The notes below the pieces were generated by a model. The model worked only from the letters and a program-made list of their open reading frames with translations, was not told the origin of the DNA and did not search any database. A stretch of DNA of 64,000 nt from positions 1,550,001 through 1,614,000 of the forward strand of contig NZ_CP071462.1 of assembly GCF_017352155.2 (NCBI RefSeq). Reading direction: 5' to 3'. A program made the translations under genes and the position numbers. How positions within the stretch are numbered: the stretch's first letter is position 1; each line of letters starts with the position of its first letter. This stretch comes from Haloterrigena alkaliphila (GTDB lineage: Archaea > Halobacteriota > Halobacteria > Halobacteriales > Natrialbaceae). This document shows positions 37,371 to 39,355 of this stretch, piece by piece.

Positions 37371-38330
37371 TCAGAGCACCGCACCCGACTGCAGGATCGC
37401 GATCAGGACGGTGAGCACCGGGATCGAAAGCAGCGTCGTGAGAAAGACGCACGTCGAGACGTACTCGGAGACGAGCACTCCCTCGGAGCGCGCGCTGCCG
37501 GCGAACTCGATGACGAGGATCAGCGGCGTCACCGCGGCGGGCATCGCGGTCTCGAGGACGAACACGCGCGCGACGGTCGGATTCTCGAAGCCCACGAGGA
37601 GCGCGATTCCGAGTCCGACGACGGGGGCGACTCCCATCTTGAGCGCCGTCGCGGGCCAGGCGCGGGAGACCGCCGACGCGGTGTCGGTTCGCGCGAGTTG
37701 AATTCCGAGGATGAGCAACATCAGCGGGATCGAGGCGTCGCCGACGAGTTGCAGCGTCTCCATCGCCGCCGTGTCCGCGGACGGGACCAGATCTAGCGCC
37801 CGCGCGGCCAGTGCGGCGACGACGGCGTAGGCCAGCGGGATGTAGAACACCCGTCGGACGCCCTCGAGGCCGGCGGAGCCGCTGCTCCGGGAGGCGACGT
37901 AGACGCCGAGGGTGTACATCAGCACGGACTGGACCGAGAGGAAGAGGACGGCCGTCTGGCGGCCGACCTCGCCGAACGCGAAGTCGGAGACGGGGATCCC
38001 GAGGTTCCCCGAGTTGGTGAAGATCGCGACCAACACCAGCGCGCTCAGTGCGGGCTCGCGCTCGCCGGTGGCGCGCCCGACGAGTTCGGCGACCGCCCAC
38101 ATCGCGGCCGTGAAGGCGACGATGCCGACAGCCACCCGCGCGAGCGTCGCCGCCGCGAGTCGCGTCACCGCGAGGCTGTGAAACACCAGCGCGGGCGCCA
38201 GCACGTAGACGACGGCCGTGTTCAGCGGTTCCGGATCGATCTCCTTGACGGTCGCCAGCACGTAGCCGACCCCCGCGATCGCGACGATCGGGCCGATCGC
38301 CGAGGCGAAGATGCCGACCAGATCGGCCAT
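37371..38330 (-). CDS. AEC-family transporter
   Basis: A 319-residue membrane protein with ten hydrophobic segments of the auxin efflux carrier (AEC)/BART type, which exports small organic acids or malate-like anions. Asn/Pro-containing motifs 'TNSGNLGIPV' and 'GVGIALLVGF' typical of the family are present. Convergent with the PAP2 gene. Confidence 0.92.
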   Translation of the reverse strand: MADLVGIFASAIGPIVAIAGVGYVLATVKEIDPEPLNTAVVYVLAPALVFHSLAVTRLAAATLARVAVGIVAFTAAMWAVAELVGRATGEREPALSALVLVAIFTNSGNLGIPVSDFAFGEVGRQTAVLFLSVQSVLMYTLGVYVASRSSGSAGLEGVRRVFYIPLAYAVVAALAARALDLVPSADTAAMETLQLVGDASIPLMLLILGIQLARTDTASAVSRAWPATALKMGVAPVVGLGIALLVGFENPTVARVFVLETAMPAAVTPLILVIEFAGSARSEGVLVSEYVSTCVFLTTLLSIPVLTVLIAILQSGAVL

Positions 38331-38483: not shown

Positions 38484-38557
38484 TTCTTTAAGTGCTTCTG
38501 GTCACAAGGTAGAGCTATGACGGGACGACGCCGTTCTCCGGACTGCTAATCGGATAG
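38484..38557 (+). ncRNA. Tandem small RNA-like unit, copy 1
   Basis: Copy 1 starts with CTTTAAGTGCTTCTGGT, a TATA-like promoter start, then ACAAGGT and AGCTA. About 28 bp on lies the likely RNA start near GACGGGA. The 75-bp segment recurs 118 bp downstream with conserved spacing. A 10-codon frame (MTGRRRSPDC) exists here, but its ATG is ACG in the second copy, so the product is probably not a peptide. Confidence 0.45.
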
Positions 38558-38601
38558 TCGCAACACCGTCTTTCTCGGCTATTAGGACTGGATTCCGTAC
38601 C

Positions 38602-38678
38602 TCCTTTAAGTGCTTCTGGTTACAAGGTGAAGCTACGACGGGAGAACGTCCCCTTCTCGCGGTGCTCGATCGATTAGC
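38602..38678 (+). ncRNA. Tandem small RNA-like unit, copy 2
   Basis: Copy 2 has the same CTTTAAGTGCTTCTGGT block (38604-38620), then TACAAGGTGAAGCTACGACGG. The downstream 40 bases diverge but keep the positions of TTCTC, TGCT and ATCG. GACG...CGTC pairing may form a small stem. The region 38331-38740 has no protein gene. Confidence 0.45.
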
Positions 38679-38740: not shown

Positions 38741-39355
38741 ATGACAGCCGACGCGCGGATTCGAGTCGCGACGCCGGACGACGCCGGCGCCGTCCGCGAC
38801 ATCTACGCCCCCTTCTGCGAGTCGACGGCGGTCACGTTCGAGGAGACGCCGCCGACCGCAGCCGAGATGGCCGACCGGATCGAGTCGACCCTCGAGCGCT
38901 ATCCGTGGCTCGTCTGCGAACGGGACGGGCGGGTCGTCGGCTACGCCTACGCGAGCCGACTGCGCAAGCGCCGGGCCTACCAGTGGACGGTCGAACTCTC
39001 CGTCTACGTGGCCGACGACGCCCGACGGTCGGGCGTCGGGCGCGCGCTTTACGCGTCGCTGTTCGCCGTCCTCGAGCGCCAGGGCGTTCGCGACGCCTAC
39101 GCCGTGACGACGGTTCCGAACCCCGACACCGAGCGGTTTCACGAGCGGCTGGACTTCGAGCGCTGCGTCGACTTTCCGACCATCGGCTACACCGAGGGCG
39201 AGTGGCGCGACGTCGCGTGGTGGCGCCGATCGATCGGCGAGAAGACGGCCGATCCCGATCCGATCACGCCGCTGCCCGAACTCCGGGACCGGCTGGACGA
39301 CGCCGACTGGGACGCGCTCGTTCGGGCCGGTGAGGACCGCCTCGAGCGACCGTAA
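38741..39355 (+). CDS. GNAT acetyltransferase, phosphinothricin acetyltransferase-like
   Basis: A 204-residue GNAT enzyme of the Pat/MnaT type that acetylates phosphinothricin-like or methionine-sulfoximine amines in relatives. Conserved segments: IRVATPDDAGAVRDIY, VTFEETPPT, ARRSGVGRALY (acetyl-CoA loop) and NPDTERFHERLDF. The C-terminal 35 residues extend beyond the usual domain. ATG 38741 gives the normal N-terminus; an upstream GTG adds residues unlike the family. Confidence 0.88.
   Translation: MTADARIRVATPDDAGAVRDIYAPFCESTAVTFEETPPTAAEMADRIESTLERYPWLVCERDGRVVGYAYASRLRKRRAYQWTVELSVYVADDARRSGVGRALYASLFAVLERQGVRDAYAVTTVPNPDTERFHERLDFERCVDFPTIGYTEGEWRDVAWWRRSIGEKTADPDPITPLPELRDRLDDADWDALVRAGEDRLERP

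Follow-up and report, generated by a model that had tools for sequence, protein, structure and literature searches.

The locus analysed here raises the question of what two closely similar repeats are doing in an intergenic stretch of the Haloterrigena alkaliphila genome, for which the original prediction offered two readings: paired small non-coding RNAs or a duplicated regulator-binding promoter. In the window, i.e. the whole 64,000-nucleotide stretch of contig NZ_CP071462.1 that was analysed, the sequence at 38484-38678 is as that prediction described it. A repeat search recovers the tandem pair at 38486-38530 and 38604-38648, two 45-nt blocks that are 87% identical at a spacing of 118 bp (Table 1), and a 23-nt core, allowing up to three mismatches, matches exactly twice in the window and never in 100 shuffles. 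The pair lies in a 410-bp gene-free stretch, again as previously noted, between transporter and GNAT acetyltransferase genes that begin at 38330 on the reverse strand and 38741 on the forward strand, respectively. The arrangement of this locus (transporter / units / GNAT/HAD-ThiE-ThiM) is syntenic in approximately 12 Natrialbaceae loci, each with one to several copies, or units, of the repeat.

Table 1. Features of the repeat locus, in coordinates of the window.
Feature	Position	Strand	Basis
Unit 1 conserved block, type A, TTTAAGTGCTTCTGGTCACAAGGTAGAGCTATGACGGG	38487..38524	+	Repeat and unit alignments
Unit 2 conserved block, type A, TTTAAGTGCTTCTGGTTACAAGGTGAAGCTACGACGGG	38605..38642	+	Repeat and unit alignments
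Putative TATA-like box TTTAAG, unit 1	38487..38492	+	Near-invariance across units
Putative TATA-like box TTTAAG, unit 2	38605..38610	+	Near-invariance across units
Conserved spacer, unit 1, TTCTGGTCACAA, including AA at positions 20-21	38497..38507	+	Unit alignments
Conserved spacer, unit 2, TTCTGGTTACAA, including AA at positions 20-21	38615..38625	+	Unit alignments
Predicted transcription start, unit 1 (position 31)	38517	+	TATA spacing and conserved A
Predicted transcription start, unit 2 (position 31)	38635	+	As for unit 1
TTCTC after unit 1	38534..38538	+	Partly conserved among type A units
TTCTC after unit 2	38654..38658	+	Partly conserved among type A units
Membrane transport protein (PF03547), divergent flanking gene, marks syntenic locus	37371..38330	-	
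GNAT acetyltransferase, flanking gene, marks syntenic locus	38741..39355	+	

To judge from sequence comparison, the repeats are members of a widespread family and not a local duplication. The genome holds seven copies, two in the window and five others 270 kb away (C1:1854618-1858339), the latter all on one strand among the genes for mptA, an RlaP-type nucleotidyltransferase (PF10127), a histidine kinase and, beside this main array, a gene that we take to be rpoeps, for RNA-polymerase subunit epsilon. Homologues exist in other Natrialbales genomes, as had been anticipated: of the 125 genomes in the GTDB family, 105 contain the element (28 nt, up to three mismatches), for the most part as same-strand arrays with copies ~95-150 bp apart, and the reversed control gave no match. 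A scan of named genomes returned 86 stretches, nearly all from Natrialbaceae, plus Haladaptatus, Halorhabdus and Halorientalis, and a sequence-only model (R1) places the element in 176 of the 392 genomes of the order. On haloarchaeal plasmids, matches almost always fall outside annotated genes. We note that Haladaptatus litoreus contigs (G271, L193-L202) and Haladaptatus plasmids (L212-L214) carry approximately ten solo units with longer common flanks, ACTRACC-like before the unit and with a GTTAGTA..TACTAAC palindrome ~130 bp after it; on these plasmid-sized contigs the units look as if embedded in a larger, dispersed element. In the literature searched, mostly open-access, on haloarchaeal epsilon, the element sequence and conserved haloarchaeal intergenic motifs, a description of the element was not found.

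The alignments reveal a layout reminiscent of a core promoter. The Natrialbaceae block reads TTTAAGTRNYTCTGGTCACAAGGTRRAGMTAYGAMGGG; ahead of it lie a weaker CC(G) at -9 to -7 and YYC at -2 to 0. Alignment of 101 units, drawn mainly from other families, leaves TTTAAGTRNYTCTSGYNAYAA as the common core, which again has CC(G) upstream and continues in Natrialbaceae as GGTRRAGMTAYGAMGGG. TTTAAG is near-invariant both in 293 units and in these 101, in line with the TATA-like box and the start ~30 bp further on that had been proposed, the latter as a prediction. Overall, the order is a TATA-like TTTAAGT, TTCTSG as a fixed spacer, AYAA at ~-10 and, at approximately position 31, the predicted start. 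Reading TTTAAG as a TATA box makes position 31, a conserved A, the natural start candidate; with the start there, the AA at positions 20-21 falls at approximately -11/-10, the site of the haloarchaeal WW element (PMC4983044). The haloarchaeal core promoter consists of BRE CGAAA, TATA TTWT and -10 WW (PMC4983044), and the element resembles it in its TATA-like TTTAAG, in the AA ~17 bp on and in a predicted start ~27 bp from the TATA centre. It differs in that no CGAAA-type BRE is found directly upstream of the TATA-like box, where the consensus is CC(G) and YYC, in being conserved from the TATA through the predicted start and ~10 bp beyond, and in occurring as tandem same-strand copies that are nearly confined to genomes encoding epsilon. 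Natrialbaceae units commonly continue in one of two ways, as type A (GACGGGA...TTCTC) or as type B (GAAGGG[AC]TTTTCG); in many genomes the final unit ahead of RlaP or rpoeps is of type B. The letters that the two window copies share after position ~40 are conserved to different degrees: TTCT(C) is partly retained among relatives, whereas TGCT and ATCG are not conserved elsewhere.

The element is strictly directional and its constraint is sharply bounded. Neighbouring units within 600 bp form 170 same-strand pairs and no opposite pair, spaced mostly by 93-150 bp (median 135), so that the 118 bp of the window pair is typical for arrays. Orthologous units, compared in 624 pairs, have an identity of 0.86-0.92 over +1 to +40 and of 0.75 over -9 to 0; in either flank it is mostly 0.6-0.7, with lower values at the edges of the compared stretch. 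The original prediction had named conservation of only the first 30 bp as an outcome that would speak against it; the conserved part comprises the first ~40 bp, which comes close. A leaderless peptide was rejected, also as previously expected: copy 1 has ATG at the predicted start and copy 2 ACG, and ATG occurs at +31 in only 90 of 381 units, opening short, unrelated frames. A CTTC..GAAG hairpin inside the block was likewise discarded, as it is broken by GTGTAG variants (judged by eye).

Could the units nevertheless be tandem small-RNA genes, whose block would combine a promoter with a functional 5' end and whose short products (tens of nt) would target RNA polymerase or mRNAs? Same-strand arrays in which the spacing never drops below 93 bp, the ~10 nt conserved after the predicted start, TTCTC/TTTT at a fixed distance and the many units with no gene after them are all compatible with such genes, and like archaeal small-RNA genes that carry promoters of their own the element is intergenic, directional and promoter-like. 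A GGGA..TTCT hairpin also scores better than inner-shuffled controls, weak evidence that is confounded because the shuffles break the conserved CG too. However, no conserved or structured transcribed body of the kind found in archaeal small-RNA genes is apparent: constraint stops near +40, the 38 nt after the predicted start of type A units fold like shuffled sequence (mean MFE -8.68 versus -8.67), the continuation differs among type A, type B and other families, and an Rfam scan gave no match at the gathering score (best E 1.3), in agreement with the earlier remark that no named RNA family fits. We regard small-RNA genes as unlikely. Since constraint ends at ~+40 and neither a fold signal, an Rfam match nor a conserved peptide was detected, the conserved entity appears to be a compact, directional DNA-level cis element of ~48 bp, about -9 to +40, with a promoter-like layout; a pair of extended structured RNA genes is not supported. 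The interpretation originally given is thus partly supported: its alternative of a duplicated regulator-binding promoter is judged right, whereas the view that the repeats work by producing paired small non-coding RNAs is not supported.

The link of the element to rpoeps is new and was not visible to the original prediction. Plasmid relatives of the gene following the main array are annotated 'DNA-directed RNA polymerase subunit epsilon'. Among the order's 392 genomes, the element and a strong RpoEps match occur together in 175 and are both missing from 211; one genome has only the element and five have only RpoEps. The corresponding Fisher value of 6e-105 overstates the evidence, as genomes and not independent evolutionary events are counted, and agreement within genera is the stronger point. 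In genus g10, two genomes (G028 and G032) are without the element and without RpoEps, and G030, also without the element, has only a weak RpoEps match; in genus g42, G137 lacks both. Conversely, G323 has the element and RpoEps, whereas the rest of its family has RpoEps homologues that are weak at most and no element. The single element-only genome is 87% complete, and three of the five RpoEps-only genomes (G013, G014 and G202) carry a diverged copy beside rpoeps.

Where element and rpoeps co-occur, they mostly lie next to each other, and such adjacency is found in many families. From Halobacterium to Natrialbaceae rpoeps is preceded by tandem units, one to three of them in Halobacterium (genus g52), and plasmids carrying rpoeps have units beside it. 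Two divergent RpoEps paralogues also have a unit nearby, one of which, on the Halobacterium hubeiense plasmid pSTJ003 (31% identity), has its own upstream unit and lies near an extra TATA-box-binding protein gene. Adjacency has an exception in genus g69, where no unit was found in the loci retrieved around rpoeps, although most of these genomes have weak matches elsewhere. We also observe that across Natrialbaceae the gene for the RlaP-type (RNA-repair-associated) nucleotidyltransferase retains its place between mptA and rpoeps, with unit arrays on either side. In the H. alkaliphila genome, a TFB gene is located ~7 kb from rpoeps, outside the window (G000:C1:1846627-1847172).

Subunit epsilon was first described decades ago. 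It is an extra subunit in Halobacterium salinarum and a subset of haloarchaea, and haloarchaeal RNA polymerase containing it transcribes native templates efficiently, yet its relevance was called enigmatic in a 2021 review (PMC8305020). Our RpoEps model is all-helical (core model pLDDT 82), and its best fold matches in the PDB are TFIIB and cyclins, with probabilities of 0.94-0.96 but E values of 0.2-0.7 and TM scores of 0.37-0.45. No Pfam match exceeds the cut-off, and RpoEps has no sequence homology to the cyclin repeats of this genome's TFB (hhalign probability 2.8), its resemblance to TFIIB being limited to the weak fold match. The possible TFIIB-like fold is a weak lead and not a statement of membership.

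We propose that the units form an epsilon-linked promoter class, arranged in tandem near rpoeps for autoregulation or polymerase holding and used at a few further loci, a reading that we incline, if only slightly, to regard as correct. The units as the sole promoter of rpoeps were rejected, as a proximal TATA box separate from the units seems to lie between the final unit and the ATG of the gene. This and the many units that stand before no gene weigh against the proposal, as do the lack of a CGAAA-type BRE, the g69 loci and the weak fold match of epsilon, and it is these first two points that lead us to autoregulation or polymerase holding. Each repeat is one copy of a directional cis element whose layout resembles that of a core promoter; in the proposed mechanism it would belong to the RpoEps system. 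Epsilon, or polymerase carrying epsilon, would be recruited at the element, whose tandem copies upstream of rpoeps would serve as a self-regulating or polymerase-holding array and which also occurs at a few further places, the locus in the window among them. The sequence family, its directionality, the bounds of its constraint and its association with rpoeps are observations, whereas promoter activity, the start site, binding by epsilon and the role of any short transcripts are inferred. Possible but doubtful is the more specific proposal that RpoEps is a promoter-specificity factor, perhaps with a TFIIB-like fold, that the element is its cognate promoter and that the tandem copies before the gene mediate self-regulation. 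As with alternative specificity factors, such as bacterial sigma factors and the multiple haloarchaeal TFB/TBP pairs, a polymerase-associated protein and a distinctive promoter-like sequence are co-inherited and adjacent; in contrast to those systems, factor binding and factor-dependent transcription are predictions for the element.

The units might instead go untranscribed and serve as operators or titration sites that bind a putative regulator genetically linked to rpoeps, with the TATA-like overlap arising by chance or serving repression. Base conservation from the TATA to the start is strong in a way that ordinary promoters lack, copies occur on several Haladaptatus replicons, and the match in several distant genera is limited to the first ~27 bp, all as expected of such sites. 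Less easily reconciled with them are the strict directionality, the conservation beyond the predicted start in every family sampled and the RlaP starts 68-155 bp after a unit (e.g. L007:9102-10022), and we consider untranscribed sites somewhat less likely again than small-RNA genes. That the units are remnants of a mobile repeat is highly improbable: despite their multiple copies and the longer, palindrome-containing flanks in Haladaptatus, two syntenic unit loci are kept across genera, constraint is confined to ~48 bp, the match with rpoeps is tight, and searches of viral and phage sequences gave no match, so that a virus or phage origin was also discarded.

Returning to the proposed epsilon-linked promoter class, the element is of a known general kind, promoter-like, but unusual in its conserved TATA-to-start spacer, its same-strand arrays and its co-inheritance with an accessory polymerase subunit. 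An element inherited with epsilon constitutes a concrete candidate target for this subunit, whose role would be directly testable in Halobacterium. On the more specific and doubtful proposal, RpoEps and the element would be to archaea what an alternative sigma factor and its promoter class are to bacteria. If the link to epsilon is confirmed, archaeal transcription would gain a promoter class specific to one factor.
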